Source: Sipunculus nudus (Eukaryota > Annelida > Sipuncula > Golfingiida > Sipunculidae). Taken from it: a DNA stretch of 64,000 nucleotides. Where the stretch lies: NCBI GenBank assembly GCA_026874595.1, contig CM049315.1, positions 5,950,664-6,014,663 of the forward strand, read 5' to 3'. The position numbers and the translations under genes were made by a program. This document shows, one piece after another, positions 17,101-49,350 of this stretch (position 1 is the first letter of the stretch; each line of letters begins with the position of its first letter). The notes beneath the pieces are model-generated. The model was not told where the DNA came from. It made no database searches and was given only the letters and a program-made list of their open reading frames with translations.

Positions 17101-17748
17101 ATACAAGTATGGCTCGCATGGGTTACTTAACAATAGCCAACTTGTACACCATAAAGAAAATGACTTGTTACAATAGAGATAGATTTTCACTTTGGTTTTT
17201 GAGTTCACATGTATTCTTTTGTGTTGATTCATCACTAATGATAAGATTACCAGCTGTTTACCATCAACAGGATGGATGTCAGTTGCAGTCGATTGCCCCT
17301 GTTCACAACTCAAGTAGGCTTGTCTGTTCATGGCTAGTTTAGCAATAGATCTCCTTTTATCTTTTTTTTGTCACTAGGTACACAGCAAGACCATTCGTGA
17401 AATTCTGCTGATGCAACCTGAAAAAATCAGCATTGAATATTCAAGAGAGGTAAGGTTCAAGAAAATGTCAGGGGTTAAATTCCCACATAGATCAAAGGTT
17501 AATGGTATCTCAGGCTATAGGTTAATCTGAACAGATAAGGTCAGGACATGGTTCATTGGAAAGGATTAGATTATCAAAGGTCAAATGGCTTGATGGATCA
17601 AAGGTTGTGAACCTTTACAGGTCAAAGGTGAAAGTACAACATATGACACTGGTTAATAACACATAATAACGCGCAACAGATTAAACACAACTAAGATAAT
17701 GGACCATATATCGTAGGTCTTAAAATGAATATCAAAACAGTTATACTA

Positions 17749-17837
<89 letters not shown>

Positions 17838-20800
17838 TAATGTATGTGTGTATACTATTCATTTTTATATGCCCATTTTAGACGATGTATTACGGTATAC
17901 CCACGGTCTGTCTTTCATCTGTTAATGTTTAGTGACGCTGTGATAACTTAACAGGACTTCCATGGATTTGATTTTCATGTAACTCAACATGAATACTTGT
18001 ATGATTAGACTTTGTAGTTTAAAAATGATGCACATATTATAACAGAGTTCCGGGATTCCGCGCGGTCACATCATCATGTACACATACAGAGCTGTGAACG
18101 TTTACTACTACAAGTACACTGTGGATGGAATGAACGTTATAGCTGTCAGTATCCTTTATCTTGAACTAACATTATCACTGTCAGTATCCTTTTGTCTCAA
18201 ATGAACTGTATTGCTGTCAGTATCATTTATTATGAATGAACTGAATCGCTGTCAGTATCCTTTATTTTGAATGAACTGTATCACTGTCAGTATCCTTTAT
18301 CTCGAATGAACTGTATCACTGTCAGTATCCTTTATCTTGAATGAACTGTGTCACTGTCAGTATCCTTTATCTTGAATGAACTGTGTCACTGTCAGTATCC
18401 TTTATCTTGAATGAACTGTGTCACTGTCAGTATCCTTTATCTCGAATGAACTGTGTCACTGTCAGTATCCTTTATCTCGAATGAACTGTATCACTGTCAG
18501 TATCCTTTATCTCGAATGAACTGTATCACTGTCAGTATCCTTTATCTTGAATGAACTGTGTCGCTGTCAGTATCCTTTATCTTGAATGAACTGTATCACT
18601 GTCAGTATCCTTTATCTCGAATGAACATTATCACTGTCAGTATCCTTTTGTCTCAAATGAACTGTATTGCTGTCAGTATCCTTTATCTCGAATGAACTGT
18701 GTCACTGTCAGTATCCTTTATCTCGAATGAACTGTATCACTGTCAGTATCCTTTATCTCGAATGAACTGTATCACTGTCAGTATCCTTTATCTCGAATGA
18801 ACTGTGTCGCTGTCAGTATCCTTTATCTTGAATGAACTGTATCACTGTCAGTATCCTTTATCTCGAATGAACTGTATCACTGTCAGTATCCTTTATCTCG
18901 AATGAACTGTGTCGCTGTCAGTATCCTTTATCTCGAATGAACTGTGTCACTGTCAGTATCCTTTATCCCGAATGAACTGTATCACTGTCAGTATCCTTTA
19001 TCTCGAATGAACTGTATCACTGTCAGTATCCTTCATCTCAAATGAACTGTGTCACTGTCAGTATCCTTTATCTTGAATGAACTGTGTCACTGTCAGTATC
19101 CTTTATCTTGAATGAACTGTGTCACTGTCAGTATCCTTTATCTCGAATGAACTGTATCACTGTCAGTAACCTTTATCTTGAATGAACTGTGTTGCTGTCA
19201 GTATCCTTTATCTCGAATGAACTGTGTCACTGTCAGTATCCTTTATCTTGAATGAACTGTATATCACTGTCAGTATCCGTTATCTCGAATGAACTGTATC
19301 ACTGTCAGTATCCTTTATCTTGAATGAACTGTGTCGCTGTCAGTATCCTTTATCTCGAATGAACTGTGTCACTGTCAGTATCCTTTATCTTGATTGAACA
19401 TTATTGCTTTCATTATCTTTTATCCAGCATGAATTTGTGATCTGTCTTAACATTCAGGGGATAAAATTCAACTGTAAGTTTACAAACAGAGGCAGAATTC
19501 CTTTTATGATTTTAACTTAAGGACCCAATGCTTAAAACCTATGTGTGCATGTATGCTTCAAAATCTATAAATGAATGCATTCGTAAGCCAGTAAACTCTG
19601 TCATTTCCAGTGATGCAGAAGATACAGGCGCTTAAGGGGACAAAATCACACTAAGCATGTCGCATTGACATGAAAAATAGCATCTACTCTTTAAAATTAA
19701 ATGGTACCTGCCAATATATTACCCTGAACACACTGGCTTACTCCTGTACGAGTGTTAAAAAAGTGGATGTCGCGAGGTCTCTGGTGCCAAAATAAATCGC
19801 TCGAATGCCACCTGCATTTTCCATTTTCTGGCTTTTAACCAGTGTTTCACAACCATGATAAGACTACTCCTAGTAGGGGATATGTTGCATGCACATAATC
19901 AGACTACTGGTCACACTGCTTTGTAAAGGTAAACAGACATGCATATTTACTAACACACTGAGCCAAAACAAGGTGTTGAGTAGCTGTAAGGGAGGTACTG
20001 AGACAAGGAGGCAAGGATGGTTTTGCTAGGAAACTTTAGTAAAAAAGCAAAACTAAACTGAAAGTTTGAAAGAATAGGCATAATGCTCCTGATTATTACT
20101 TTATGGACTTCTTTTGTATAAAGAGGACCTTAACATGAATCAGATTTACTGCTGTTTGTGATTTTGGCGATATTGATGGGCTACTTAGACAGAGAACACA
20201 AGTACATCAGCTCAGATGTGGTAAGTTCAATGTTTCATATTACATTATCTTGATTCATACAAAACTCTAGATGATAATAAAATGTGATAATATGCCAAGT
20301 TTGCTGTGGACAAGAACACAGAAACATTTATTAATGGCAGGAAAAAATGTCAAATTAAAGTGATACCAATGATTCTGTGTATATGTTTCCTCTATCATAA
20401 CATTTTGTGGTGTAATATTTTGTATTTGACCAGAGAAGAACATGTATTAATAAATGCATCTGTGCTTAAAGCCAGCTATACACCTGATACCTTATAGAAT
20501 TGATGTGATTTCTGCCTAACTTTGCCTTGCATATAAAGGAACTCTAGGTAATTCCTGTTTCGAAAAATTCTTTTAATGCCTGTGTCACATGTATGAGCTT
20601 GTTTATCTTGTTAGTAAACACAGCGATGTTGACAAGAGGTGGTTGATTGCATACTTGCTGAAGCTGAAAGAGTTTACTAGTTGCAAAATGCCCTTGATTA
20701 TTTTGGAGCCCCCACGTGTTATAAACATGTGAATATAAACAACCTGTGTGGTGGGATCTGTGTTTTCTGGTCCGTTTCTATAAAAATTTCAAGGGATTAG

Positions 20801-23800
20801 CCTTAGTAAATGGACGTCAGATATCAAAATAGACTCCTTTAACCTAGTGCATGAGATCCCAACTCTTGTTATAAAAGAATTCACAAATTATAGCTGATGG
20901 ACCACATGAGAAAGGTTTATCTGTGTAGCCATGACGTTATCACATAGTAATATTCTGTATTTTAACTCTGTAGTGTAGCCCATAAATCTTTTTGCACAGC
21001 TCTAGAAAGTGCGGCAAAGAATAATATCCTCCACAAGACTATACTGATTTTTAAGTCCGGTGGTATACAGACATGGACATTAGAAGTGGACACTGGTGGA
21101 TGGAGCATTATATTAGACTAATTTAGACAGTTAATTTTATTATCGTTAGTAAATCCAGCCTTTTGCCAAATGTTGCCCCCAAAGACTCTGTGAATGTGCA
21201 TTCAGCCTTGGGAGAAATATTTATTTCTGGTATTTAATTTCAAGTCCCATGTGAATATTGAGACAGAGAGGAATTTTGTCAACTTTGCTACCATCAATAT
21301 TTTTATTAATTTTTCAGCAACTGTACATGGCCCTCCTGGCCATCATACCCCTGGCGTACTACATAGGCATGGGCATTACCAGGTAAACTGACCAATCAGA
21401 ATCATTATAGTATCTTATGTCATAGAGGATGTACATTAATTGGCAGGTATAGAAATAAATGTGACAAATTCATATTATGACTACAATATTTCAATCTCAG
21501 ATAAATTTACAATTTTATTACTTTTTTGTATTCTATACTGGAGAATATATAATTAATATTTGATTACGCTGAATTAAATAGTAAATCATTCTGATTTATA
21601 TATAACAAGAAAATAACTAAATTACATAACGTCAGTAGTTAATAATACTTGATTAATAAAAAGGAATTATGAATTTCATTAAATAATCATTGGTATATTA
21701 TGCCTGGAACATTCAAACATTCACTAATAACTTTGTTTTTTTTGTTTGTGGGGTCCAAGTCGCAATAATTTTTTAAAGGAAATTATTACAAAATTTTAAA
21801 CTTCTTGAATAAGACAAGTCAATCTTTTTAATAGCACATATTTTATGTTACACATAAATCAAAGATTGATATAACAAGTATCAGATTATGTTTGTATTAA
21901 GAATTTTCCCTTGTTCAGTGTTCCCTACGGTCTTTGGCTGTATCCACACTAGCAAATAATCGGATTATGAATCAGTTTACTTTGTCTGCTCAAGGCCACT
22001 AATAGGGGCAATCCAGGATTTTGGAAAGGGGGGGTCACTCCCAGGAAGACTGAAAAAAAAAATAAAAAGATCCTCTCGTCCGGGAAGGAGGGGGTCAGGG
22101 TCGCAAAATTTGGTTTGAAACCCTTAAAAATAAGACATGTGCCTTGGCCGCTACCCTTGATGCAGCCTCAGCATTCATGGAGAGAGAGGATGCTCCACTA
22201 CAGGCCTAAATCAGATTACAAACAAAGTGTGGACAGCAAACTCATGATGCATTGAATAAACCGATTAAGGCTTTTGTAAAGCGAACAACAGTGCAGACTT
22301 TGAGACTACTTTGAGACTAAAATCAACCGGTTTAGTATAATCCAGTTTAGGTATGAACCAAGTGCAGATACAGCCTTGCTCAGGTTGTTAAGATTATATG
22401 CACATACCAAATAATTTGTTAATGTATTATGAGATCTCAAAATTGTGACATCCATTAAACAAAGAAAATGGAAACGTGCAAAAAATTAACCTCACATCTT
22501 AAATGTAACCAAAATATAAAATAAATTACAATTATTTAATAAAATTATAATTAATTAAACATTTTATGAAAAAATTTGAAGCCAACCACAGTATCTGTAA
22601 GTTGACAGTTATATTCTAAAATTAAATTGTAATTAATTGAACTTGTTATAGAAATGAGAATTGTAGCATTCATGTGTATTTATATATATCTATAATAGCA
22701 CAAACCTGTCTCTTGTATTCACAGCATTTCTGCGCAGAGTAACTTTGCTGTTGGGGCTGTATTGAATGCCAGCTTTGGGTCTGTTGTGGAACTTGTTCTT
22801 TATATCTTTTCCTTGTTGAAAGGCATCCGGGAAAGTAAACCTCTGTGCTACAGAGAGCTGGTCAAGTCAGCGTTGGTTGGTAAGTGGAGCATAAAGTGAT
22901 GTCATAGAGTTACTTAATGTTAAAGAGAATGGTAAAAAAATATTCAGGGTTCCATGGCATCCTGAAATTAAGGAAATCCTGGAAAATGGGCTCCCGTTTA
23001 TCTAGTCAGTGTCGGGAAATTTGCCAAATATGCCTCAAATCAGGAAAAAGTAAGAGAAAAATCGATCAGCTGTGGTAGTGGTGTTACTGTTGAAATTGAT
23101 CGAAATAATTATCACGGAATTTAAAAAAAATCATTTGGGAAGTACAGGGTTCAATCATAGAATTTTGTTCTCATGAATTGCTTTGAATCCTGATGTGGTT
23201 GAATACAATATAGGTAATGATTAGAATGGATAAATTATTATTGATATATTTTGTATTGCTTAGAATTATGATACAAAAAAACAATTGTTCCTTACTCTAT
23301 TTGTTAAGCAATAGATATCAAATTTACGGTATATAAATATTCATTACACATTCAATGAAGTAGAATTGAATATAGTTTAATTACAATGGAGGATGTTCTT
23401 GGTAAAAGTTGGACAGTCAGATTACTTATAAATCAGTTTTTACATGCTGAATGTGGCAGTATTTAAAATAATGGGAATAAGAATATGTCCTCTTAATTTG
23501 TGATCTACCTTGCTCTTATTGATGCATTTACCAATATCTGTGCAGCCTATTTCTAATTAAGTGATATAGTTGTTTAGCCTTTGAGTATGTATTACTTATT
23601 CAAACACTTATATCATTCCAGGTACACTGCTGGCAACAATGTTACTTATACCTGTAAGTATGATAAGTCTCCAAGTATGCTTGTGCATTTTAGCAAAAGC
23701 CTGTATGTGTGTGTTCTATATTTTTTTCTTCCAATATATACCTTTAATTGCCAATGTAATTATTAATTTCACAATGCAGCAAAAATCAGAAATGTACATG

Positions 23801-26800
23801 CTAGCAAATCTCTAATAATTTTTTTCAACCAATTTTTGTAAATATTTTTGCAAGTGACCACATGAGTTGGACTAGATTGAATATGTGACCTAGAATGCTT
23901 TTAATTAGAAAACTGGTTTTATATTATCAGTATTTATTTCTTAATCCTTAGTTAAGATCATGACTTCCTGAGGTTGCCGGCTTAAAAAATAAATTTGGAA
24001 GGAGGCCATGTCTTCATCCATGTCTTGCTGTTTTCATTCTTTCCTTAGATCTTTTAGCACAGCTGGTAAGACAGATGATACTCCACATACAGTACTGTTA
24101 GAAATTTTACCAAACCCAAAACTGGGTCACTGTGAATTCATTTCTTTCAGAAATTAAGGAAAACCATCATTTTTAGCGAACCTGTGAGCTAATGCGATGG
24201 TGTGGCATCCGTCAGGCATCCGTCATCTGTACGTCAACCCATACTATCTCCAAAATGACAGGTGCCAGCATCACAAAATTTTATGCAAAAAATTAGCCAT
24301 CTGAACTTTATTGGATTTTTCTTATTTTTGGCTAACTGCATTTTCTTAGATTTTAAAGAGAAAAAGCTAAAAAAAACCTTAAATATCTTCTCCTCCCAAA
24401 CAGTCCAGCCAAATTGTTAAATATTTCATCTGTCAAAAAAAAAGCATACTAAAATTTCAATCTCAGAAACTGCTGGAGCTATCATCACCAAATTTTATGC
24501 CAATGTTGGTCACATGAGTCATATCTGAAATTGAGGTATTGGTGGCGCCACCTGCATCAGCCTTTTTTGTACACGGGCCATCAGTGCCTGTATCATACTG
24601 AGGACAACAAAGAACTTCTTCTCTGAAACCATATGGGCAAATTGTTTGATTTCACACAGAAATGATCCTGGGGTAGTGCTTTCTGAAGTTTGTTCAAATG
24701 GTCTCAGTTTAGCTACTTTTGGCCGAGTCATGAGTAGTTGAATTTAGTCATATGCTATAAGAGCCAATTTTAGCTCAATGGCTTCAAAGATCTTCTTCTC
24801 AAAAACCACTGGGCCAAATGCTTAAATCTCATTAATTATCCTCAGATGTTGATAATTCAGGTTTGTTAAAATGGTTTTGGTCCAGTGCTTTTAGGCTGAG
24901 TTCAGGAAGCTGAACTTGGCCAGTTTGCTGTATCTTCCTAAATGAGTGATAAACCTGCAAAACATTTTTCAACTGACATCTCTCAAGCCAATTTGTTTAA
25001 CCTTTTACAAGAATAATACCCACAATAATTCTTATAATAATTGTCTTTAATGGTTCCACATGAATGATTTTTGGCTGAATTATGGAGATTGAATTTTACC
25101 AAAAATGTTAGCTGTAAGAAGCAGTTACATCTAGCCTGGCACCAGTTTATCAGCATCTATAACATCAAGCCACTAGATTTCAGGTTAAATAGCTTGACAG
25201 ACTGCCAACTATTTCAGAATTTGCAACAGGCCATAGGTCAGCCTGGATCTATTTATAGCTTTGGCAGACTGGCAACTGTATACCTGAAATTTAGCATGTG
25301 TATAGATCTCACTTAGCTCTTCATCATAGGCAAAACCGGTGGCGCCACCTGCAACCATTTATGCACAGCATCCATCTGTTCATCTACCTTGGGATAAAAT
25401 CACTCATATCTCAGCAGTGGTTTGACTTATCCACCTGAAATTTTGAAGGTTTATATATCCTGGACATCTTTCTAGATTTTATAACAGGTGGCACCACCTA
25501 CATTCACGTTTACTCTGCAGACATCCAAGCTCATATCTCGGGAACCGTTTGACCAATTGGGCCAAAATTTTGCATGCGTATAGATCTCACATAGCTCTTC
25601 ATCATAGGCAAAACTTGTGGCGCCACCTGCAACCATTTATGCACAGCGTCCATCAGTTCATCTGCCTTGGGATAATATCACTCATATCTCAGCAGTAGTT
25701 TGATTTATCCACCTGAAATTTTGCAGGTTTATATGTCCTGGACAGCTCTCATGATTTTATGACAGGTGGCACCACCTACATTCACGTTTACTCTGCAGAC
25801 ATCCAAGCTCATATCTCAGGAAACGTTTGACCGATTGGGCCAAAATTTTGCATGCATTTAGATCTCACATAGCTCTTCATCATAGGCAAACCTGGTGGCG
25901 CCACCTGCAACCATTTATGCACAGCGTCCATCTGTTCATCTGCCTTGGGATAATATCACTCATATTTCAGCAGTGGTTTGATTTATCCACCTGAAATTTT
26001 GCAGGTTTATACATCCTGGACAGCTCTCTTGATTTTATGACAGGTGGCGCCACCTTCATTCAGGTTTACTCTGCAGACATCCATACTAATATCTCCGGAA
26101 CCGTTTGACAGATTGGGCCAAAATTTTGCATGTGTATAGATCTCACATAGCTCTTCATCATAGGCAAAACTGGTGGCGCCACCAGCAACCACTTATGCAC
26201 AGTGTCCATCTGTTCTTCTGCCTTGGGATAAATTCACTCATCTCAGAAGTGGTTTGACTTATCTACCTGAAATTTTGCAGGTTTATACATCCTGGACAAT
26301 TTTCTCAATTTTATGACAGGTGGCACCACCTACATTCACGTTAAAGCTGCAGACATCCATGCTAATATACAACACACCTCACTTCACCCGTCCCACTCTG
26401 ATTTCTGCAGATACACATAGTCGCTTGTAGACTACCCATATTCTTGTTTTAAAATGTCCTAGTCTGAAACTTGCAGGTCTGAAATGTCCATTTTGTTGAA
26501 ATCATGACTAAGGTAGATATGCAGGACTTAAAAGGATCAATATTAAATTTTAAAAATAAACCTCCATTCACACTCCCAAACTTTGCACAGGTTCGCATTA
26601 TGCCTGTAGGTCTTCTTCATTAAAAACTTATGTTTCACTTCAAGAATGCCCAGTATCAAAATCACTGATGTGTTCTTGATCATAACTGGTGTCAATATTC
26701 TTATCTGTATTTGGTATTTACAAGCCAGAAGTTAGGTCAGGATTGGGTATTTTGTTAAAGTTGTGGACCAAACACATGTAGCTACTTAGGGCAGTACTAC

Positions 26801-29800: not shown

Positions 29801-32800
29801 TGAACACCACAATAGGCCTTCAGTGTTCAGACTGTGAATATTCTATTAAAAGTACCATCACAGTGAACACCACATTAGGCCTGCAGTGTTCAGACTGTGA
29901 ATATTCTTTTTTAAGTACCATCACAGAGAACACCACATTAGGCCTGCAGTGTTCAGACTGTGAATATTCTATTATAAGTACCATCACAGTGAACACCACA
30001 ATAGGCCTTCAGTGTCCAGACTGTGAATATTCTATTAAAAGTACCATCACAGTGAACACCACATTAGGCCTGCAGTGTTCAGACTGTGAATGTTCTATTA
30101 TAAGTACCATCACAGTGAACACCACAATAGGCCTTCAGTGTTCAGACTGTGAATATTCTATTATAAGTACCATCACAGTGAACACCACAATAGGTCTGCA
30201 GTGTTCAGACTGTGAATATTCTATTATAAGTACCATCACAGTGAACACCACAATAGGTCTGCAGTGTTGAGACTGTGAATATTCTATTATAAGTACCATC
30301 ACAGTGAACACCACAATAGGTCTGCAGTGTTTAGACTGTGAATATTCTTTTGTAAGTACCATCACAGTGAACACCACATTAGGCCTGCAGTGTTCAGACT
30401 GTGAATGTTCTATTATAAGTACCATCACAGAGAACACCACATTAGGCCTTCAGTGTCCAGACTGTGAATATTCTATTATAAGTACCATCACAGTGAACAA
30501 CACAATAGGTCTGCAGTGTTCAGAATGTGAATATTCTATTATAAGTACCATCACAGTGAACACCACAATAGGTCTGCAGTGTTTAGACTGTGAATATTCT
30601 TTTATAAGTACCATCACAGTGAACAACACAATAGGTCTGCAGTGTTCAGAATGTGAATATTCTATTATAAGTACCATCACAGTGAACACCACAATAGGTC
30701 TGCAGTGTTCAGACTGTGAATATTCTATTATAAGTACCATCACAGTGAACACCACAATAGGTCTGCAGTGTTTAGACTGTGAATATTCTATTATAAGTAC
30801 CATCACAGTGAACACCACAATAGGTCTGCAGTGTTTAGAATGTGAATATTCTATTATAAGTACCATCACAGTGAACACCACAATAGGTCTGCAGTGTTTA
30901 GACTGTGAATATTCTTTTATAAGTACCATCACAGTGAACACCACAATAGGTCTGCAGTGTTTAGAATGTGAATATTCTATTATAAGTACCATCACAGTGA
31001 ACACCACAATAGGTCTGCAGTGTTTAGACTGTGAATATTCTTTTGTAAGTACCATCACAGTGAACACCACAATAGGTCTGCAGTGTTCAGACTGTGAATA
31101 TTCTTTTGTAAGTACCATCACAGTGAACACCACATTAGGCCTGCAGTGTTTAGAATGTGAATATTCTATTATAAGTACCATCACAGTGAACACCACAATA
31201 GGTCTGCAGTGTTTAGAATGTGAATATTCTATTATAAGTACCATCACAGTGAACACCACAATAGGTCTGCAGTGTTTAGACTGTGAATATTCTTTTGTAA
31301 GTACCATCACAGTGAACACCACAATAGGTCTGCAGTGTTCAGACTGTGAATATTCTTTTGTAAGTACCATCACAGTGAACACCACATTAGGCCTGCAGTG
31401 TTCAGACTGTGAATATTCTTTTGTAAGTACCATCACAGTGAACACCACAATAGGTCTGCAGTGTTCAGACTGTGAATATTCTTTTGTAAGTACCATCACA
31501 GAGAACACCACAATAGGTCTGCAGTGTTTAGAATGTGAATATTCTATTATAAGTACCATCACAGTGAACACCACAATAGGTCTGCAGTGTTTAGACTGTG
31601 AATATTCTTTTTTAAGTACCATCACAGAGAACACCACATTAGGCCTGCAGTGTTCAGACTGTGAATATTCTATTATAAGTACCATCACAGTGAACACCAC
31701 AATAGGCCTTCAGTGTCCAGACTGTGAATATTCTATTATAAGTACCATCACAGTGAACACCACATTAGGCCTGCAGTGTTTAGACTGTGAATATTCTTTT
31801 GTAAGTACCATCACAGTGAACACCACATTAGGCCTGCAGTGTTCAGACTGTGAATGTTCTATTATAAGTACCATCACAGAGAACACCACATTAGGCCTTC
31901 AGTGTCCAGACTGTGAATATTCTTTTGTAAGTACCATCACAGTGAACACCACAATAGGTCTGCAGTGTTCAGACTGTGAATATTCTATTATAAGTACCAT
32001 CACAGTGAACACCACAATAGGTCTGCAGTGTTCAGACTGTGAATATTCTATTATAAGTACCATCACAGTGAACACCACAATAGGTCTGCAGTGTTCAGAC
32101 TGTGAATATTCTTTTGTAAGTACCATCACAGTGAACACCACATTAGGCCTGCAGTGTTTAGACTGTGAATATTCTTTTGTAAGTACCATCACAGTGAACA
32201 CCACATTAGGCCTGCAGTGTTCAGACTGTGAATGTTCTATTATAAGTACCATCACAGAGAACACCACATTAGGCCTTCAGTGTCCAGACTGTGAATATTC
32301 TTTTGTAAGTACCATCACAGTGAACACCACAATAGGTCTGCAGTGTTCAGACTGTGAATATTCTATTATAAGTACCATCACAGTGAACACCACATTAGGC
32401 CTGCAGTGTTCAGACTGTGAATATTCTATTATAAGTACCATCACAGTGAACACCACAATAGGTCTGCAGTGTTCAGACTGTGAATATTCTTTTATAAGTA
32501 CCATCACAGTGAACACCACAATAGGTCTGCAGTGTTTAGACTGTGAATATTCTTTTGTAAGTACCATCACAGTGAACACCACATTAGGCCTTCAGTGTTC
32601 AGACTGTGAATATTGTATTGTAAGTACCATAACAGAGAACACCACATTAGGCCTTCAGTGTCCAGACTGTGAATATTTTATTGTAAGTACCATCACAGTG
32701 AACACCACATTAGGTCTGCAGTGTTCAGACTGTGAATATTCTTTTTTAAGTACCATCACAGAGAACACCACAGTTGGTCTGCAGTGTTCAGGCTGTGAAT

Positions 32801-35800
32801 ATTCTATTATAAGTACCATCACAGTGAACACCACATTAGGCCTTCAGTGTTCAGACTGTGAATATTTAATTGTAAGTACCATCACAGTAAACACCACATT
32901 AGATCTGCAGTGTTCAGACTGTGAATATTCTATTTTAAGTACCATCACAGAGAACACCACAGTTGGTCTGCAGTGTTCAGACTGTGAATATATTATTGTA
33001 AGTACCATCACAGAGAACACCACAGTTGGTCTGCAGTGTTCAGACTGTGAATATTTTATTGTGAGTACCATCACAGAGAACACCACAGAAGGTCTACAGT
33101 GTTCAGTATAGCAATAAACAATGTAAAAGCTCTCTCACCACCCTACCCTTTTGCAGTTATCAATATAAAATTGACTGCACAATATTTTATATTTCTCTTA
33201 TGCCCTTATGTTAGATAAAAATATATGTTTTTAATAATAAATTAATGAAAACTTATTGAAGTAGAACAAACTGTTTCAAATTTCAAAAGTATATGTGGTT
33301 CTTGTGACCATTTCTTGACATGAATGGCTCACTCAAGTACAGTTTGGACAGCTTTTGTGATATTTTATTAATGGCAAAATAATTAAATCACACAAAATGT
33401 TAAATATATATTTATAAAATTATAAATTGACATAACCATACAGTACACATTTTTTCTTTCAGTTTGGGATTGATGGAAATGAATCTCTGTACAATGAACA
33501 CATACGCCCCCTAGTGTATGTTTGTGCCATTATCCTGCCTGTAGCGTACATCATTGGTCTAGTCTTCAGCCACAAAACTCACCGAGCTCATGTGTATGAC
33601 ACCTACAAGTCAGACAGTAATGGTGAGTCCTTGTTGCTGAGTCTTTGTAGTCTCAGGTTTATAAAAGAAGAGGAGGCCAAGCTGGCATTTAAAGAGAACA
33701 CAATACCTACAGTGCTTTAATCATACACTTATAAAGCTGTGTTACCATGTGCCTGTATATGCATGAATAAATTGGTGTGTTTCATTTTGTGTATACATGC
33801 ATATACATTGTATTCATAGATATTCAAGGCTTCCCCCCAACAAGTAGGCTGGAGTGACATCATTTAACTAGGAATGCCTTAGACTAAGACCCTTTGCAAG
33901 AAATCCACTCGTGCACATATAAAATATAAAATAATTGTTTATCACATATCCTCTGTCATGAACCTATTTAGCATTGTTCTGTCTTGTTTCCACATGTAGC
34001 TTAGCCCTGAACTTTATATAAAATTTGAGTAAAGATTGCCATTTAATTTATTTTTTAACTTCAGAAAGTTTAAAATTGGTGAGGTATATAATCTTCTGAA
34101 TTGTAACTACATTGTTTTGTACAAGCATTGGATAAGTTTTATTAAAATTTATGTCATACCAGTAGTTGGTGAATAGTAACGTGTAAGAACTTTCAGGTGA
34201 TGAGCTAATCCTCTTTAATGTCTACTTTTGTCTGTAGAGGGCCACGGTCATGTGACCGCTTAATGTCTAATGTCTACTTTTGCCTGTCGAGGGCCACAGT
34301 CACGTGACGGCTTAATGTCTAATGTCTTCTTTTGCCTGTAGAGGGCCACGGTCATGTGACCGCTCACTGGGGACGGCTGAAGAGCATCTTGATCCTGGTG
34401 GTATCTACAGTGCTGATGTCACTGTGTGCGGAGCTGGTCACAGACAACATACAGCCGCTGTTACAGCGCTCTGGAGTCAGTGTGGTCAGTGTTAACTCAG
34501 TTCTTGAGAACTGAGTAGTGACTTTGTAACAGGAAAGTTTTATTTGGAGACACATTTCTAGGAATTTCCTGCTAAGACAAGTTTGTCTCAACTGATAAAT
34601 GAATCCAATATGAATACAGATGCATTCCTTTTTATACATCTATCTGTGACAGGACATATTATGATATACCTGTCATCTTTGAGTGTTGCTGCGATAATTT
34701 GCTAATTTCATGAAATTCACCATAACTACTTATCAACAGATTATCTCGCTCGTGTTCCATTATTGGCAAAATCCACACATATAAGGTCAGAGGTCACAAG
34801 GATACTCTGTAGTATCACCGTGATAACTTAACCATGAATATGATGGATTTTTATAAAACTCAAGAGAAATATTAATCCATATAATATCTCACCTTAGTTT
34901 GATTTCCAGCAAAATGCATGCATATTTAATGAGGTCAGAGGGCACCAGACTTTTGTTATGCCAAGATTACTTACCACAAATATGATTGATTTTCATGAAA
35001 CTCGTTATGAATAATAACCAGAAACTGTATTACATTCTCAGCATATCACATATTTGAGGAGGTCAGATGTTACAAGATAACAGTGGTTTATATAGATAAG
35101 ATTATATGAACTGATAGTAATATTTTATTGTATCGCCAGACATAGTCTGGAGATACTATGGTTTAGGCATGGTCGTGCCGCCGCTGCCGCAGAGATTTCT
35201 TTTTGGACACAATAACTCAAAAAATATTTCACGGATCTTTACCAAACTTGGTATATGTATAGATATGGGTGAGAGGACGACGCCTATTTAAAATGAGGTC
35301 ATGACCTCAACTAGGAGAGTGACCTTGACCTTGAATAGGTTCAATTTTTGGGGAAAATCACACAAATTCTTAAATATCTCAAGAAAACTTGCATGGATTG
35401 ATCCCAAAATCAAGTTGATCGAAGATCATGGATAGGGTTGTCATGTTCCAGAAACTGGTGGCGCCACCTGTTATTTTTTACTTGTTTTCATGCCGTTTAA
35501 TATCCCCAAAATTGCTACTTGACAGTACTGTGAGCATTATAAGTCAAAAACTAATGGACAGATTTCTTTCATATTATGAAAATACATAGATATGGATTAT
35601 GGGATGATGTTTATTTAAATTGGGGTCATGACCTTTCCTATGAGAGTGGCCTTGACCTTGAATATTGCCATATATGGTGAAAATCACACAAAATCATTAA
35701 TTTCTCAATAAGGGATGCATGCATTGGTCCAAAAATCAACTTGACCGAAGTTCTTGGATAGTAATGTCATGTACCAGAAACGGGTGGCGCTCCCTGTTAT

Positions 35801-38800
35801 TCTTTTACTTGTTTTCGTGCCGTTTTATACCCAATCATTGCCACTTAACAGTACATTTATAACCTGTTAGCATTATAAGTCAAAAAATAATGGACAGATT
35901 TCTTTCATATTATGCATATACATAGACATGGGTTATGGGATGATGTATATATAAATTGGGGTCATGACCTTTCCTATTAGAGTGGCCTTGACCTTGAATA
36001 TTGCCATATATGGTGAAAATTACACAAAATCATTAATATCTCAATAAGGGATGCATGCAATGGTCCCAAAAATCAACATGTTCGAAGATCTTGGAAAGTA
36101 TTGTCATGTACCAGAAACAGGTGGCGCCACCTGTTATTTTTTACTTGTTTTCATGCCGTTTAATATCCCCAAAATTGCTACTTGACAGTACTGTGAGCAT
36201 TATAAGTCAAAAACTAATGGACAGATTTCTTTCATATTATGCAAATACATAGATATGGATTATGGGATGATGTTTATTTAAATTGGGGTCATGACCTTTC
36301 CTATGAGAGTGGCCTTGACCTTGAATATTGCCATATATGGTGAAAATCACACAAAATCATTAATTTCTCAATAAGGGATGCATGCATTGGTCCAAAAATC
36401 AACTTGACGGAAGTTCTTGGATAGTAATGTCATATACCGGAAACAGGTGGCCCCACCTGTTATTCTTTTACTTGTTTTCGTGCCGTTTTATACCCCATCA
36501 TTGCCACTTAACAGTACATTTATAACCTGTGAGCATTATAAGTCAAAAACTAATGGACAGATTTCTTTCATATTATGCTTATACATAGACATGGGTTATG
36601 GGATGATGTATATATAAATTGGGGTCATGACCTTTCCTATTAGAGTGGCCTTGACCTTGAATATTGCCATATATGGTGAAAATTACACAAAATCATTAAT
36701 ATCTCAATAAGGGATGCATGCATTGGTCCAAAAATCAACATGTTCGAAGATCTTGGAAAGTATTGTCATGTACCGGAAACAGGTGGCGCCACCTGTTATT
36801 CTTTAACTTGTTTTGTGCCGTTAAATACCCCATCATTGCCATTTATCAGTACTGTGAGCATTATAAGTAAAAAACTAATGGACAAATTTCTTTCATATTA
36901 TGAAAATACATAGATATGGATTATGGGATGATGTTTATTTAAATTGGGGTCATGACCTTTCCAATGAGTGGCCTTGACCTTGAATATTGCCATATATGGT
37001 GAAAATCACACAAAATCATTAATTTCTCAATAAGGGATGCATGCATTGGTCCAAAAATCAACTTGAACGAAGATCTTGGATAGTGTTGTCATGTACGGGA
37101 AACAGGTGGTGCCACCTGTTATTATATTACTTGTTTTCGTGCTGTTTAATACCCCATCATTGCCACTTAACAGTATTGTGAGCATTATAAGTCAAAAACT
37201 AATGGACAGATTTCTTGCATATACATAGACATGGGTTAGGGGATGATGTATATTGAAATTTGGATCATGACCTTTTCTATGAGAATGACCTTTTCTATGA
37301 GTGTGGTCTGATATTAATTGTTGCTGAAGATTGGGGGCCTATTCTTAAAGGGGGGGGGGGATTAATTGTCTGGGGATACTATGGCACCTGCGGTGCCAAG
37401 AAATATCTAGTTTTCATATGCTTTTTTTTAAACTTTTTCAGTACTTTATTGGTGTGACTCTTCTTGCACTGGTGCCAGATATTCCAGAGATTGTGAATGG
37501 AATACAGTTTGCTCTTAAGAACAACATATTTCTCAGGTAAGAGACCTTTTGTTTGCTTTATCATTTTTCCTCTACTCCAGCAGTTCTAACAGAGTAAACA
37601 TCTGAGATATTGTTCCATTTTTAAGCCTGTTTTATTTGCAGTAAAAATTTTTAAGGTGGAGCTATTAATTATAAGAAATATGATAATTCTTATTTATTTT
37701 CAGTTCCAAATTGTTTTCTCTGTGTAATAAAATATTTGTTGCTTTTTCCAAGATTACAATACTGAAGAATTTTCACTATTTATCATGGGGTCTTTGTGCT
37801 TTTGTTTCACTGAATTAGCTGATAAGAATTTTACACATTACAGATATCAAATATCATCAGTATATGAAATCATCATTATTTGTGCTTTTCCTACATTTCT
37901 GGTCTAAACTGGTTTACTTTGACACTGATTATTTAAACAGTCCACAAATCTGACTGATTTTAAAAAAAAGTGAAGTCCTGCACATGAATGACCTGGCACA
38001 AAGAGATCAAAAGTGAAGGACACAAGGACTTAGTAGATTTATGATCAGATTAAATGCATGTAATACATCACAACTGCTGGAATAGATAATGTTCAATCGG
38101 TGGTAGGAATCGGTTGTAAAATCATATTCAGTGATTGAAAGATAATACACAACCAATGATTGATTATTAATCAGGTATTTTCATACCACCTATATTACCG
38201 TGAAATATGCTGTAAAGAATTTTAACTAAATATTGACTGAGTAAATTCAGTCTTATTTGTACATCATTCTGAAAGCTCAAGGTACTGGCCTTGTTGTTGA
38301 CACTTTATTTTTTGCCCAAGGTTAGGTATGCTGTGACAGAATAATAATATATTTATTCTGGATTATGTGACATCTTTGGATATGCATACATCATCGTTTG
38401 TGATCAGTTGTGCAAAAATGCAATTAATTTAATTTATTATGAAAGAAAACTATCAATCATCAAAATAATTAATTAATTGTCACAGTTCATATGTATCACA
38501 TGTAACATAGGTGTGACCCTCACAGAATCCTGGCTTTGTAGATCAGATGTCAAAAGCAACTAGTTATAAAAGGATTATACAACCTAATTTTGTACATGTT
38601 ATACCAGTGTCTGGCCTGCCACTTGTTGGTATTATGATCTACAGACTGATTTGTTACCTTTTGTTTACAGTATAGAGGTTGGCAGTTGCATAGCAACACA
38701 GGTGTGTATGCTGCAGATACCCATCCTGGTCCTTGCTAATGTTATATATGTAAGTATCTACATGCAACAAAATATATAAATATATCTATATGCAATAAAA

Positions 38801-40780
38801 ATGTTTGTGTGGTTGGGGATGTGTTTCATAAGTGTGTTAATAATAACCATAAACCTTGTAGATTTATATGTGCACGTGTAAACAATACTGATATACATTT
38901 TCATAATGGACTGATATTGGATTAAAATTGCAGTGCAGCTTTCAATTTAAGATAGATTTCCAAGTGTTAAGAACATTAATACAAGTAATGGTTTCAAAGG
39001 GGTGTGGGAATGAAATCCTTAGTGCTTGGAAAAGGCTGAAGGCAGAGGCCTTATATTATGTCGTGCTATCTAATGGTAACTTATGTAAAAGCAGATTATT
39101 TTATGGAATGTTGTTGTTTATATATACTTTGCTAGTGAATAGATTTTTGTCATGTTAAACTTAAGATTTCACATCCATGTATTCACTATATTTGCATGCA
39201 GTTCTACATGATTTTGTCAGCATCCATCTGTTCTTTATTTTTAACAGGACATGCAGTTCTACATGATTTTGTCAGCATCCATCGGTTCTTTATTTTTACA
39301 GGACATGCAGATCTACATGATTTTGTCAGCATCCATCTGTTCTTTATTTTTACAGGACATGCAGTTCTACATGATTTTGTCAGCATCCATCTGTTCTTTA
39401 TTTTTACAGGACATGCAGATCTACATGATTTTGTCAGCATCCATCTGTTCTTTATTTTTACAGGACATGCAGTTCTACATGATTTTGTCAGCATCCATCT
39501 GTTCTTTATTTTTACAGGACATGCAGTTCTTCATGATTTTGTCAGCATCCATCTGATCTTTATTTTTACAGGACATGCAGTTCTACATGATTTCGTCAGC
39601 ATCCATCTGTTCTTTATTTTTACAGGACATGCAGTTCTACATGATTTTCTCAGACATCCATCTGTTCTTTATTTGTACAGGACATGCAGTTCTACATGAT
39701 TTTCTCAGACATCCATCTGTTCTTTATTTATAACAGGACATGCAGTTCTACATGATTTTGTCAGCATCCATCTGTTCTTTTTTTAACAGCACATTTAGTT
39801 CTACATGATTTTCTCAGACATCCATCTATTCTTTATCTATAACAGGACATGCAGTTCTACATGATTTTGTCAGCATCCATCTGTTCTTTTTTTTAACAGC
39901 ACATGTAATTCTACATGATTTTCTCGGACTTCCATCTGTTCTTTATTTTTAACATGGCATGCAGTTCTACATGATTTTGTCAGCATCCATCTGTTCTTTT
40001 TTTTAACAGCACATTTAGTTCTACATGATTTTCTCAGACATTCATCTGTTCTATATTTTAACAGGGCATGCAGTTCTACATGATTTTCTCAGACATCCAT
40101 CTGTTCTATATTTTTACAGGACATGCAGTTCTACATGATTTTCTCAGACATCCATCTGTTCTTTATTTTTTAACAGGACATGCAGTTCTACATGATTTTC
40201 TCAGACATCCATCTGTTCTCGACAGTCTTTGCTCTGCTGCTGATGAACTACATGTTTCAGGATGGTAAATGTAACTACTTTCAAGGTGAGTGCACAAACT
40301 TCATTTTTTCAGGTTTTGTTATTGGTCCTGGAGGACCAAGTCTCTGTCTGTGATTATGTTTTGAATGAAAATGGACCAAGCTTCAGTTTGGTAAAAATAT
40401 GATCTGAGCAAGGTCATTCATCTTGCATCAGTTAGTCTGATTCTTGCTATTGGTCACTGAACCCAGAATCTGTGTCTCCCTCCAGGTGTAGGAATGATTG
40501 CTGGTCTTGACTACATCTCAGACTGATACATTGATATTTAAGACATTTTCCACCTCTTTAATCCATGTCTTATATTCCCTTCATATATTATAAGTTTGAC
40601 TCTGTAAATATTTTGTTTATGCATTTAATCTGTATAAAAGATTGAAATATTTGAAATTCTGAAATTATTGAAATAACTTTTATTCTTATCATCTTTTCAG
40701 GTGCTGCCCTCTGCCTGGTGTACTGTGCATTAATTGCAATGTACTTCTTTGCTCCAAACCCTCGGGGTTATAAATGTTGA
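2527..40780 (+). CDS. CAX-family cation/H+ (probably Ca2+/H+) exchanger, 18 exons, 5' end missing
   Basis: Exons by splice sites and phase: 2527-2646, 3372-3433, 13149-13289, 13943-14056, 17378-17449, 18046-18148, 20144-20220, 21318-21382, 22725-22879, 23622-23653, 29041-29140, 29579-29721, 33463-33622, 34342-34484, 37442-37536, 38671-38749, 40177-40285, 40701-40780. All phases match and the sum is 615 codons plus TGA. The product has about 12-13 hydrophobic segments. The first CAX repeat carries LNASFGSVVE, matching the family FG(N/S)xxE ion-binding motif; the second carries LVPDIPEIVNGIQFAL, where canonical members have GNxxEH. An amino-terminal hydrophobic segment before the CAX core (FGWWVALVYM) recalls the long VNX1-like or animal CAX subgroup. 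Known members exchange Ca2+ or monovalent cations for protons across vacuolar or endosomal membranes; substrate and location here are inferred. The chain starts mid-protein, so earlier exons lie upstream or in unrecognised sequence before 2527. Confidence 0.88.
3472..3730 (+). mobile_element. Family A element, 5' fragment
   Basis: It starts AGCAAACCTGTGAGCTTATG and matches the left end of the full family A elements (a diverged direct copy) until about 3730, where similarity stops. It lies just after exon 2. Confidence 0.6.
4018..4238 (+). repeat. 30-bp minisatellite, about 7 copies
   Basis: The unit is GAAGTAGTTTAAATATGGGC then TGGTGTCTTT, in tandem with few changes. It lies in the intron between exons 2 and 3 and shows no similarity to any exon of the gene, so it is an ordinary minisatellite. 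Confidence 0.95.
4706..7775 (+). mobile_element. Family A Helitron-like (HINE/pearl-type) element, copy 1
   Basis: The left end is AGCGAACCTGTGAGCTTATG after a T run; the right end is CACAGGTTTGCATTAGGCCT then GTAGGCCTTG before a T run. GCGAACCTGTG and CACAGGTTCGC (as in other copies) are inverted. The right end has a hairpin AGGCCTGTAGGCCT. An internal end near 7574 (CATATTCTAG before T) also has a hairpin. The core carries units with TGGCGCCA-type palindromes. No transposase frame is visible, so it is non-autonomous. Helitron-like status is inferred from hairpins, sub-terminal inverted repeats, tandem cores and T-rich targets. Confidence 0.65.
8119..8158. repeat. (AT)n microsatellite
   Basis: About 20 dinucleotides in the intron between exons 2 and 3, followed by a degenerate AT-rich tail to about 8230. 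Confidence 0.97.
9266..11852 (+). mobile_element. Family A Helitron-like element, copy 2, with about 275-bp core repeats
   Basis: The left end AGCAAGCCTGTGAAGCTTGG is diverged; the right end is CACAGGTTCGCATTAGGCCT. The core has four units of about 275 bp (marker CAAGCTC at 10456, 10729, 11006, 11283), each with a GGTGGCGCCACC-like palindrome and a line-up motif TCTCGGGAACCGTTTGAC. At 9938-9995 lies a cluster of TCTAGAC palindromes. An internal terminus TATTCTAG is near 11675. Confidence 0.68.
11853..12728 (+). mobile_element. Family A-related fragment with a right end
   Basis: This segment resembles the 6250-6700 and 7570-7770 parts of copy 1 (TATAGCTTTGGCA-type and AGCATTATA-type stretches) and ends with CACAGGTTCACATTAGGCCT then GTAGGCC. 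It lacks the left end and abuts copy 2, so it is either a truncated neighbour or a nested remnant. Confidence 0.5.
13149..14056 (+). CDS. CAX exons 3-4: acidic cytosolic linker and second membrane segment
   Basis: Exon 13149-13289 (47 codons, phase 0 on both sides) encodes a polar Ser/Pro/Glu linker containing EEEATPLLGE, which includes an acidic dileucine-type sequence (EEATPLL) of the kind used for endosomal or lysosomal sorting; that role is inferred. The donor is gtaaat. Exon 13943-14056 (38 codons, phase 0) begins RQPSSYVWLILGCPLVVIAH and spans a long hydrophobic segment ending YIPVSK before donor gtatga. Confidence 0.82.
14799..15245 (+). mobile_element. Small element with inverted GTCCCCTGCC ends and 3' hairpin
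   Basis: The left end is ATTGTCCCCTGCCATCGTCG and the right end GGCAGGGGACATTCC, giving the inverted pair GTCCCCTGCC/GGCAGGGGAC. It finishes with a perfect hairpin, AGATCTGTATCACAGATCT, before a T run. Core units contain TTCAAGGTCACAG and related repeats. The architecture matches families A and B. Confidence 0.65.
15968..17001 (+). mobile_element. Family B Helitron-like element, copy 1
   Basis: It starts AGCCCTCAGCCCTTAGGCTG after TTTTT and ends GGCTGAGGGCTTTTGTCAGC then TTTTGCTGATATTCTAG before TTTT. AGCCCTCAGCC and GGCTGAGGGCT are inverted. A TCAGC-TTTT-GCTGA hairpin lies 4 bases before CTAG, like a Helitron CTRR end. The core has about three units of about 320-340 bp with GGCGCCACCT and GTGACCTTGACCTA motifs. 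It carries no protein frame. Confidence 0.7.
17378..18148 (+). CDS. CAX exons 5-6: cytosolic segment with the YYYKYTVDGMNV block
   Basis: Exon 17378-17449 (24 codons) encodes VHSKTIREILLMQPEKISIE up to donor gtaagg. Exon 18046-18148 begins SSGIPRGHIIMYTYRAVNVY and contains YYYKYTVDGMNV, a block I associate with this exchanger subgroup. The exon ends GCTGTCA (phase 1), and the next exon supplies AT to make Asn. The donor at 18149 is GTATCC, a weak 5' splice site, and the junction is the first unit of a 35-bp tandem array. Confidence 0.8.
17750..17834. repeat. (AT)n microsatellite
   Basis: About 42 uninterrupted AT dinucleotides in the intron between exons 5 and 6. Confidence 0.97.
18139..19410 (+). 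repeat. 35-bp tandem array (about 36 copies) on the exon 6 donor
   Basis: The unit reads CTGTCAGTATCCTTTATCTC, then GAATGAACTGTATCA. It starts inside the last codons of exon 6, so each copy reproduces CTGTCA|GTATCC, the exon end plus donor. Unit length is mostly 35 bp with a few 36-37 bp. Because 35 is not a multiple of three and most units contain TGA, use of later donors would break the frame. The distal end decays at about 19390-19410. Confidence 0.95.
20144..23653 (+). CDS. CAX exons 7-10: core membrane segments with the first ion-binding repeat
   Basis: Exon 20144-20220 encodes a membrane segment (LLLFVILAILMGYL) then DREHKYISSDV. Exon 21318-21382 encodes QLYMALLAIIPLAYYIGMGI. Exon 22725-22879 encodes NFAVGAVLNASFGSVVELVL, the first alpha-repeat motif with the conserved acidic residue, then KGIRESKPLCYRELVKSALV. 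Exon 23622-23653 is a 32-nt microexon (TLLATMLLIP). Donors are gtaagt, gtaaac, gtaagt and gtaagt. Confidence 0.87.
24175..26618 (+). mobile_element. Family A Helitron-like element, copy 3, with 277-bp core repeats
   Basis: The left end is AGCGAACCTGTGAGCTAATG, the right end CACAGGTTCGCATTATGCCT. Core units repeat every 277 bp (25526, 25803, 26080). It lies in the intron between exons 10 and 11. Reading frames seen in it are repeat-unit artefacts. Confidence 0.68.
26849..28792 (+). mobile_element. Family D repeat element with terminal hairpin, interrupted by family B copy 2
   Basis: It begins with a hairpin of GCCCCCGCCACAAAGTGGCC then GGGGC. About five units of 175-185 bp follow (CGCAATGCCTGCAGATA, CCAGTTACAGATCGAGTT, GTTGACCTACTTTTGA, AGAAAATTTCATGAAAAA). 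Two of the units lie to the right of the nested family B element. No coding potential is seen. Confidence 0.65.
27491..28468 (+). mobile_element. Family B Helitron-like element, copy 2, nested in family D
   Basis: It starts AGCCCTCAGCTCATAGGCTG and ends ATCAGCTTTTGCTAATATTC then TGG, with core units like copy 1. It interrupts a family D unit between ACAGCCGTTTTT and CGCAATGCAATGC, so it inserted after the family D element. The inner AGCCCTCAGCC-type inverted end at the right is lost. Confidence 0.68.
28793..29040 (+). repeat. Degenerate copies of the exon 11 start
   Basis: Five imperfect copies of the exon 11 first bases (GGGTTTGTGTATGATTATC) occur near 28796, 28909, 28938, 28971 and 29019 before the real exon at 29041. 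Two of them follow tatcag and the real exon follows ttttcag. Spacing is irregular (20-110 bp), so this is an old or decayed array. Confidence 0.65.
29041..29721 (+). CDS. CAX exons 11-12: membrane segment and Cys-rich hydrophilic loop
   Basis: Exon 29041-29140 encodes GLCMIIGGLRHSTQTFNSRS then STLLFISVAG, donor gtcagt, phase 1. Exon 29579-29721 encodes VFAPTIFSKAYG, the loop motifs CQKC and CSDC, and N-glycosylation-type sequons (NSS, NTT), ending EYSI before donor GTAAGT at 29722, phase 0. The last 45 nt of the exon and its donor are the first unit of the 54-period 63-bp array that fills the following intron. Confidence 0.85.
29677..33111 (+). repeat. 63-bp minisatellite, 54 periods, on the exon 12 donor
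   Basis: The unit encodes NTTxGLQCSDCEYSx then STIT(E/V), 21 codons. The first GGT of the unit is at 29689 and the matching one in the last unit at 33091, a distance of 3402, exactly 54 x 63. The frame is that of exon 12 and stays open except for one TGA at 30268-30270. About 20 units keep GTAAGT or GTGAGT at the donor position; most others read ATAAGT. The first unit contains the real exon end and donor at 29721/29722. Confidence 0.97.
33463..34484 (+). CDS. CAX exons 13-14: membrane segments after the loop
   Basis: Exon 33463-33622 follows tttctttcag and encodes FGIDGNESLYNEHIRPLVYV, a membrane segment, then SHKTHRAHVYDTYKSDSN; donor gtgagt, phase 1. Exon 34342-34484 follows tgcctgtag and encodes EGHGHVTAHWGRLKSILILV then SLCAELVTDNIQPLL; donor gtcagt, phase 0. 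Two extra copies of the second acceptor lie 52 and 104 bp upstream. Confidence 0.85.
34217..34368 (+). repeat. 52-bp x 3 duplication of the exon 14 acceptor
   Basis: Copies of the acceptor plus the first coding bases (AGGGCCACGGTCATGTGACC) begin at 34238, 34290 and 34342, exactly 52 bp apart. Copy 1 keeps TGTAG, copy 2 has TGTCG (acceptor lost), copy 3 is the functional one. Copies 1 and 2 run into GCTTAA, so use of copy 1 would give an early stop after EGHGHVTA. Confidence 0.92.
34740..35095 (+). repeat. Diverged dispersed repeat with about 120-bp units
   Basis: Three weak units share GATAACTTA, GATTTTTATAAAACTC or TTTTCATGAAACTC, and GAGGTCAGA. A similar stretch (GTGATAACTTAACAGGAC) occurs at 17939-17990. 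It resembles the cores of the hairpin-ended families but has no clear ends. Confidence 0.4.
35131..37384 (+). mobile_element. Family C repeat element with alternating 326/336-bp core units
   Basis: The left end has the hairpin CCAGACATAGTCTGG and ends GAGATACTATGG; the right end is CTGGGGATACTATGG. The core palindrome GGTGGCGCCACC or a variant occurs at 35457, 35783, 36120, 36446, 36782 and 37106, so units alternate near 326 and 336 bp and form dimers of about 662 bp. Units also hold GGCCTTGACCTTGAATAT. It occupies most of the intron before exon 15. Confidence 0.7.
37442..38749 (+). CDS. CAX exons 15-16: second ion-binding repeat
   Basis: Exon 37442-37536 encodes YFIGVTLLALVPDIPEIVNG and IQFALKNNIFL, phase 2 at donor gtaaga. 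Exon 38671-38749 follows ttgtttacag and encodes SIEVGSCIATQVCMLQIPIL then VLANVIY, donor gtaagt, phase 0. The acidic residue of the second CAX motif is kept (PE) but its GN is replaced by PD. Confidence 0.85.
39193..40230 (+). repeat. 54/55-bp tandem array (about 19 copies) of the exon 17 acceptor and start
   Basis: The unit is GACATGCAGTTCTACATGAT plus about 24 bases and a pyrimidine run ending in (T/A)ACAG. The real exon starts at 40177. Units at the 5' side are 54 bp (CAGCATCC) and keep an open frame (DMQFYMILSASICSLFLQ repeated). Units nearer the exon are 55 bp or longer and share the exon's own CAGACATCC. Several distal units end in AACAGC or ACATGG and lose a clean AG|G. Confidence 0.95.
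40177..40780 (+). CDS. CAX exons 17-18: last membrane segments and stop
   Basis: Exon 40177-40285 follows ttttttaacag and encodes DMQFYMIFSDIHLFSTVFAL then LLMNYMFQDGKCNYFQ, donor gtgagt, phase 1. Exon 40701-40780 follows catcttttcag and encodes GAALCLVYCALIAMYFFAPN then PRGYKC and TGA (40778-40780). About 18 diverged copies of the acceptor and start of exon 17 lie directly upstream. Confidence 0.85.
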
Positions 40781-42189: not shown

Positions 42190-42585
42190 ATGATCACAGT
42201 ACTATGTAAACTTTTTATAGCTCATCACAGAACTATGAAAACTTGTAATCACAGTACCAAGGTATCTTGTAATAAAAGATCACAGTACTATAGTATCTTG
42301 TAATAACTGATCACAGTACTAGAGTATCTTGTAATAACTGATCTCAGTACTATGATATCTTGTAATAACTGATCACAGTACTATTATATCTTGTAATAAC
42401 TGATCACAGTACTATGATATCTTGTAATAATTGATCACAGTATTATGAAACCTTGTGATCACTGACCACAGTACTATGATATCTTGCAATAACTGATCAC
42501 AGTACTATGATATCTTGTAATAACTGATCACAGTACTATAGTATCTTGTTATAACTGATCACAGTACTATGATATCTTGAAATAT
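42190..42585 (+). repeat. 31-bp minisatellite, about 12 copies, downstream of the CAX stop
   Basis: The unit is CTGATCACAGTACTATGATA then TCTTGTAATAA. It lies 1.4 kb after the exchanger stop codon, either in a long 3' UTR or just beyond it. Each unit contains TGATCA and AGTACT palindromes. Confidence 0.93.
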
Positions 42586-43207
42586 CCTGAACACATTATT
42601 ATGCATTATTATCTTCTGCATGATCACATAATTAAGTTTATGCAGGAGTTTCAACTGAAAAATAAAATACCAATACCAGGGTTTCTAAGTAATTTAGATT
42701 GAAATCAGATAATTAGTAAGGTATATAAAGATAATACAGAGATCCACTACATTTAAGTAAATTATGATTCATTCATGTATCATTTTGTTGATGTTGATAT
42801 CTCACAGAAATATTTCATGCCAATGTACATATATATTAGTATGGTAATTACAAGGTGTGCTTTTGCCAGTGTGCTATTTAAAGAATGTTTGACCAGAAAG
42901 CTTAAACCCAAAGTGCAGATATAAAAATGTTTTCAGTGTGTGTGATTGAATTGTTATCGACCATACAAGATGTTCATGTATCCACAGATATGTTTTGTTT
43001 GACCTTTGTTTGATTGTAGCTTATTCACCAGATTTTGGTGCTTATGTCTGCATTTTAGAAAGAGCTCTCCTTGTTAATTTCTTATAATTTGGCTTGGTGT
43101 GATACACAGTCACAGATGGTTTAATTTATCTGTTTATTTTAACTTCTGAATCTCACCTATATACCTTTTGTCAGGTATTAATTATATATACATACATGTA
43201 TATACAT

Positions 43208-49349: not shown

Positions 49350-49350
49350 G

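Follow-up and report, generated by a model that had tools for sequence, protein, structure and literature searches.

Tandem arrays on splice junctions of a CAX-type cation exchanger gene in Sipunculus nudus, one of them repeating a predicted U12-type donor

Five tandem arrays sit on splice junctions of a single gene in a stretch of 64,000 nucleotides from the annelid Sipunculus nudus (GCA_026874595.1, contig CM049315.1, positions 5,950,664 to 6,014,663; hereafter the window). A sequence-only reading of this DNA had judged such a placement far from random in a locus of which only about 5% is exonic, and had suggested that tandem duplication is seeded at splice sites. The exonic share is confirmed (1850 bases in 38,254, i.e. 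4.8%), and the question is whether junctions attract tandem duplication or whether ordinary minisatellites happened to arise there.

The initial exon search used a protein query, and the gene model itself is based on reading frame, splice signals and Pfam and PDB matches. Joined together, the 18 exons yield a single open frame of 615 codons followed by a stop, with compatible phases, and all 17 introns have GT-AG ends, so that the borders listed in table 1 are set by frame and splice signals. Two stretches of the protein match Na_Ca_ex (PF01699; E = 3.4e-22), as in the CAX / Ca2+:cation antiporter family with its two Na_Ca_ex domains, and the N-terminal part matches YccF (E = 1.1e-16). The best PDB match, over both halves, is the vacuolar calcium ion transporter 4k1c (4.3e-34); 4kjr, 9vsc and 9vsa were also matched, and the cation exchanger YfkE and the vacuolar cation/proton exchanger 1 are among the closest proteins.

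Table 1. The CAX-type gene, its predicted U12-type intron and the arrays at its splice junctions (positions are those of the window).
Feature	Position	Strand	Description
CAX-type cation exchanger gene	2527-40780 (exons seen)	+	615-codon frame, GT-AG introns, Pfam, PDB
Exons 1-6	2527-2646, 3372-3433, 13149-13289, 13943-14056, 17378-17449, 18046-18148	+	
Exons 7-12	20144-20220, 21318-21382, 22725-22879, 23622-23653, 29041-29140, 29579-29721	+	
Exons 13-18	33463-33622, 34342-34484, 37442-37536, 38671-38749, 40177-40285, 40701-40780	+	
Intron 6	18149-20143	+	predicted U12-type GT-AG; donor GTATCCTTT; branch-point-like GACCTTAAC at 20126-20134; few pyrimidines
35-bp minisatellite	18128-19424	+	exon 6 donor; TRF 35 bp x 36.9; 37 copies, last partial
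Degenerate 34- and 19-bp repeats	28871-29058	+	exon 11 acceptor, marginal; two TRF rows hand-merged
63-bp minisatellite	29671-33106	+	exon 12 donor; TRF 63 x 54.5
52-bp unit, 3 copies	34216-34371	+	exon 14 acceptor; TRF row 34216-34364, 52 x 2.9
54-bp minisatellite	39195-40219	+	exon 17 acceptor; TRF 54 x 18.7

The array units consist of local exon and intron sequence; donor arrays start in the exon and extend into the intron, and acceptor arrays end in the exon. Four of the five reported junction arrays are clear (the donors of exons 6 and 12, the acceptors of exons 14 and 17), the unit comprising a splice site together with exonic bases as expected of a minisatellite on an exon–intron boundary, but the exon 11 acceptor is a marginal case: only a 19-bp row of 2.4 copies (29013-29058) overlaps it, and the 34-bp row (28871-29002) ends 38 bases before it. 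That the arrays begin or end ‘exactly’ at the junctions is too strong a description, because 21, 18, 51, 23 and 43 exonic bases lie within the arrays of exons 6, 11, 12, 14 and 17, respectively; the measured range of 18–51 bases likewise replaces the ‘few to 45’ given for the unit. In the exon 17 array, 17 acceptor-like CAG[GC][AG]CAT motifs were counted, functional acceptor included.

The five units do not form a single family and, as far as their sequences can be compared, appear mostly unrelated. Indeed, eight of the ten unit pairs are no closer than shuffles at P = 0.05, the two others, exon 6–exon 11 (P = 0.030) and exon 6–exon 17 (P = 0.027), exceeding shuffles before any correction. No hairpin is shared by the six folded strands (five units, that of exon 6 in two forms), among which the units of exon 11 (z = −4.0) and exon 14 (z = −2.0) are outliers in folding, and no trigger motif common to the junction arrays was found. 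The founding step is thus left unexplained by any shared hairpin or trigger.

To what extent does the clustering exceed chance? TRF returned 40 rows in the window, of which 19 in-gene rows of period at least 10 were mapped onto the CAX borders and merged by hand into 16 arrays, five of them overlapping junctions; rows of period below 10, the second row at 28871 and the short-period rows 27069, 27249 and 27427, nested in a 180-bp array (26934-27480), were left out of the mapping. Under a unit-straddle null, in which every array is reduced to one unit placed randomly in the collapsed gene, 0.40 junction arrays are expected among the eight of period 20–100, against five observed (P = 1.3e-5), and 0.46 among the 11 of period 10–100 (P = 3.8e-5), gene and test having been picked post hoc in both cases; for all 16 arrays of period at least 10, the expectation is 1.59 versus 5 (P = 0.012). 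A second null kept the full array lengths and required a border at most one unit from an array end. When the whole set was rotated round the gene, P was 7e-4 for periods 20–100 and 10–100 alike and 6e-3 for all 16; independent placement gave 0/100,000, 2e-5 and 6e-3, respectively. Across nulls, 0.3–0.4 junction arrays are expected among the eight of period 20–100; with the exon 11 array removed, four of seven remain (P = 7e-4 by rotation, 5e-5 by independent placement). All three in-gene arrays of period at least 10 with at least 10 copies are on junctions (P = 2e-4). None of these P values is corrected for the scan, gene and tests having been chosen because the pattern had already been noticed.

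Borders were also compared independently of TRF, with 44-base probes, each having a border at its centre, whose best local match was sought within 400 bases. The borders of exons 6, 11, 12, 14 and 17 scored 56, 39, 68, 78 and 70, respectively, and the remaining 30 of the 35 borders scored 13–26 (background median 18, 90th percentile 30), none of them standing out for weaker tandem copies in this test. The exon 11 case is marginal here too, since a score of 39 corresponds to the 95th percentile of array-free intron. Among random intron positions, those in array interiors counted too, 36% had a near copy scoring at least 50, versus 4 of 35 borders; thus, junctions as such are not repeat-rich. 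Accordingly, ‘far from random’ holds against the within-gene nulls but does not extend to an excess per border, and it concerns a gene and tests chosen afterwards: the clustering at junctions is real in the CAX gene and unproven as a rule.

Three of the eight minisatellites of period 20–100 in the gene lie off junctions. Arrays of a 278-bp unit, also off junctions, occur in introns 2 (10261-11559) and 10 (25287-26368), with consensus sequences that look alike by eye, and approximately 1.4 kb past the final CAX exon there is a 31-bp minisatellite of 13.5 copies (42191-42603), at no assignable junction.

The donor repeated in the exon 6 array is of an unusual type for this gene. When 169 donor–acceptor pairs were tried for intron 6, the frame was preserved by only two, with donors at 18148/18149 and at a poor site, 18193/18194. 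A donor near 18139 (GAAC/GTTATAG), where the sequence-only reading had placed the border, is therefore ruled out, and the donor was moved to GTCA/GTATCCTTT at 18148/18149, which both preserves the frame and perfectly matches a U12-type site. The consensus of U12-type 5′ splice sites is RTATCCTTT and that of U12-type branch points resembles TTCCTTAAC. Against these consensus sequences, the intron 6 donor matches at 9/9 positions, the other 16 introns having at least four mismatches each, and GACCTTAAC, 9 bases before the intron end, matches the branch point at 7/9; an equally good branch-point motif exists in intron 2, whose donor has four mismatches. Near its 3′ end, intron 6 has 7/20 pyrimidines, the fewest of the 17 introns, and so lacks a polypyrimidine tract. 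With approximate U2 weights, its donor scores −2.4 versus 5.4–12.0 for the other 16, a poor score that is explained if the donor is read as U12-type; a weak U2 intron was considered and set aside on account of the perfect U12-type donor. Intron 6 is thus predicted from these signals to be a minor-spliceosome intron, the only one of the 17 in the gene.

If intron 6 is of this type, the exon 6 array repeats a U12-type 5′ splice site, its unit being made of 21 exonic bases, that site and a few intron bases. Directly 3′ of exon 6, within 1.3 kb, the array presents 32 exact copies of GTATCCTTT, the predicted donor among them, and four with one mismatch, mostly 35 bases apart. Elsewhere in the window, the exact motif occurs once on the plus strand, at 1888, where no exon could be assigned, and never on the minus strand. 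CTGTCAGT, which includes the donor GT, is retained in 36 of the 37 copies. Constraint on the nine-base U12 core was not detected in gap-aware copies of this array: 0/6 core states versus 7/18 others reach three copies (P = 0.13; state counts taken by eye). As for the acceptor of exon 6, it has 8/20 pyrimidines, the fewest among the 16 introns with U2-type donors.

The distribution of variants between copies gives some indication of how the arrays grew. The exon 6 array includes one 37-base copy, and an ACATTAT form is present in its second copy (18163), its last copy (19392) and once inside (18619). In the exon 12 array, 54 copies hold an exact 63-base register over 3.4 kb; a GAG...ACAGTTGG form characterizes copy 2 as well as three of the five last copies, is partly present in the first copy and is absent from the interior. 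Four consecutive units starting at 31750 are repeated exactly at 32128, six units further on, a recurrence that we read as a sign of segmental amplification. Within the exon 17 array, resemblance to the functional exon is, by eye, greatest in the copies nearest to it. Taken together, the copy patterns would fit local duplication followed by internal turnover. At the opposite ends of the array introns, no clear copies were detected by the probe (A7 17, D10 18, A13 16, D13 14, D16 26; background median 18, 90th percentile 30). Intron gain by tandem duplication, which leaves both intron ends in copies of one segment, is therefore not what is seen here.

What the additional sites would do to the protein was assessed by swapping each border singly for alternative sites in or beside its array. 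The 104 sites scored comprise 35 exon 6 donors, 19 exon 12 donors and 36, 6 and 8 AG sites for exons 17, 14 and 11, respectively; AG sites of exon 17 were scored from 11/17 pyrimidines upwards, those below being omitted, and a few scored AG sites fall just outside an array or within an exon. A single one of the 104 gives the full protein, the border site being otherwise alone in doing so in each array. This exception is the donor after 29784, at the end of exon 12 copy 2 (29722-29784, one 63-base repeat), which adds 21 residues in frame; the 18 later exon 12 donors lead to an in-frame stop, the protein ending at residue 576. As for a coding constraint on the exon 12 array, the array when read through is open but for one stop, but most of its recurrent variants would change residues (by eye). 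Only 20 of its 54 copies keep a GTRAGT donor and 34 are without the donor GT, just one column of the unit being more variable than the first base of the donor. Internal sites, if used, would mostly yield faulty mRNA. With one useful site in 104, the arrays do not amount to a reserve of usable spares, and the suggestion that selection for splice-site redundancy maintains them finds no support in these counts or in the loss of GT from the exon 12 copies.

Several described systems share features with this locus. One is a minisatellite in an interferon-induced gene, reportedly 6-16. It gives the transcript multiple splice donors (Turri 1995, as cited in the available text of PMC3618361). The CAX arrays similarly supply repeated donors; compared with that case, as far as the citing text describes it, they have 35- and 63-base donor units, one of them U12-type, they include acceptor arrays, and their scored additional sites are nearly all unproductive. 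According to the excerpted text of PMC2812944, tandem repeats at exon–intron boundaries were found in human genes in segmental duplications, where they may change splicing, and 27 intron modifications were retained after manual inspection. The CAX repeats lie on exon–intron boundaries in the same way; unlike these cases, which that excerpt describes, with support from RNA, in numerous genes of recent duplication, the five occur in one gene and are read from its genomic sequence. On the basis of such extracts, minisatellites at boundaries are already known. Introns arising from tandem arrays or tandem duplication are the subject of Zhuo 2007, by its title as cited, and of Lehmann 2010 (PMC2891723), in the portion available. 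Tandem duplication involving splice signals is common to these accounts, as far as title and portion go, and to CAX, but the CAX copies lie at one intron end and no intron is flanked by two copies of one segment. Gastropod hemocyanin introns (PMC7931591) were discarded as a parallel, the words ‘repeat’ and ‘minisatellite’ being absent from the text at hand. Among the matches listed, judged by titles and abstract starts, there was no report of a large U12-donor array and none of arrays favouring junctions across a genome.

The USSE deserves a separate comparison. In the U11-48K and U11/U12-65K genes, tandem U12-type 5′ splice sites serve to recruit U11, with activation of a U2-type acceptor that lies upstream, according to the passages available from PMC5473595, PMC8329584 and PMC3584512. 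Tandem U12-type 5′ splice sites, 32 of them exact, are likewise found in CAX downstream of the U2-type acceptor of exon 6. Unlike the USSE, they belong to neither of these genes, CAX encoding Na_Ca_ex and YccF domains, and they form a minisatellite that lies on the donor predicted for a real intron. USSE sites are bound by U11 but do not serve as donors; in CAX, the predicted donor is found in the first copy, and the 35 further donors scored would give no full protein.

We consider it probable that the arrays are ordinary minisatellites, born of chance duplications that spanned junctions, were tolerated and then grew in the ordinary way. A tandem duplication of approximately 35–63 bases would have happened to span a splice junction, and would have been tolerated because one intact splice site stays directly against the remaining exon and is still usable. 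The interior copies would then have expanded, homogenized by slippage or unequal exchange. Splicing would presumably use the first donor or the last acceptor of an array. In intron 6, the duplicated site being a predicted U12-type donor, the transcript would as a result offer U11 snRNP dozens of potential places to bind. This neutral account alone does not explain why five of eight arrays are on junctions: chance combined with post hoc choice is the leading answer, and a junction-linked bias the main rival. The choice of the gene after the fact weakens the excess over chance, and may do so without removing it. A mutational bias seeding tandem duplications at junctions, through co-transcriptional R-loops, spliceosome–polymerase conflicts or copying of pre-mRNA, would account for there being more junction arrays than the straddle null, rotation and independent placement predict, in a gene with no general surplus of arrays (eight of period 20–100 in 38.3 kb versus six TRF rows in 25.7 kb outside). 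We nevertheless regard it as unlikely, given a single gene picked once the pattern was seen, 30 of 35 tested borders without clear tandem copies, and donors and acceptors both affected with neither a common motif nor a common hairpin. Copying from mature mRNA does not fit, since the units carry intron sequence.

That the exon 6 array acts in a USSE-like way is suggested by its 36 exact or near-exact U12 donors directly after an exon whose acceptor is so poor in pyrimidines, and by the activation of upstream U2-type 3′ splice sites by known tandem U12 sites, as the available parts of PMC8329584, PMC3584512 and PMC5473595 describe it; it is improbable nonetheless, as core variants are not significantly rarer than those elsewhere in the unit, the available part of PMC8329584 names SNRNP48 and RNPC3 alone for the demonstrated function, and one array of five would be accounted for. 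Still less do we expect the broadest combination to hold, namely that junctions are preferred birthplaces of minisatellites in the genome and that an array of more than 30 U12 sites concentrates U11 snRNP, with an effect on exon 6 definition or a sequestration of the minor spliceosome. That assembly artefacts, such as the false expansion of a short repeat, account for part of the array lengths could be argued from the exact register of the 54 exon 12 copies, but the many dispersed substitutions between copies and the small, simple three-copy case of exon 14 make it very unlikely. The least probable reading is that the copies are under selection, either as spare splice sites or for protein isoforms of different length: the near-complete retention of CTGTCAGT with its GT in exon 6 and the in-frame donor of exon 12 copy 2 agree with it, against which stand the single productive site among those scored, the premature stop shared by the later exon 12 donors and the frequent loss of GT in that array.

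Clustering at exon borders is unusual enough to merit a genome-wide test. Were junctions indeed hot spots of tandem duplication, transcription or splicing would be linked to genome instability, and a route to intron lengthening and to shifts of exon borders would exist. The U12-donor array also constitutes a natural test object for how the minor spliceosome picks among near-identical potential U11 sites, and could show whether tandem sites beyond the two genes known to have a USSE work as enhancers or as decoys.

Other elements of the window were recorded. A 32-base host pattern had 0 matches in prokaryote contigs. On the minus strand, an open frame of 801 codons (46977-49382) encodes ankyrin repeats (Pfam Ank_2, 7e-127), and another of 138 codons (54232-54648) resembles, by eye, the end of a LINE reverse transcriptase, with no Pfam family at 0.001. 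Finally, 21-bp tandem palindromes, GTCTAGAC...GTCTAGAC, occur in three copies each at 9932-9993 and 52188-52249, near-identical and 42 kb apart.
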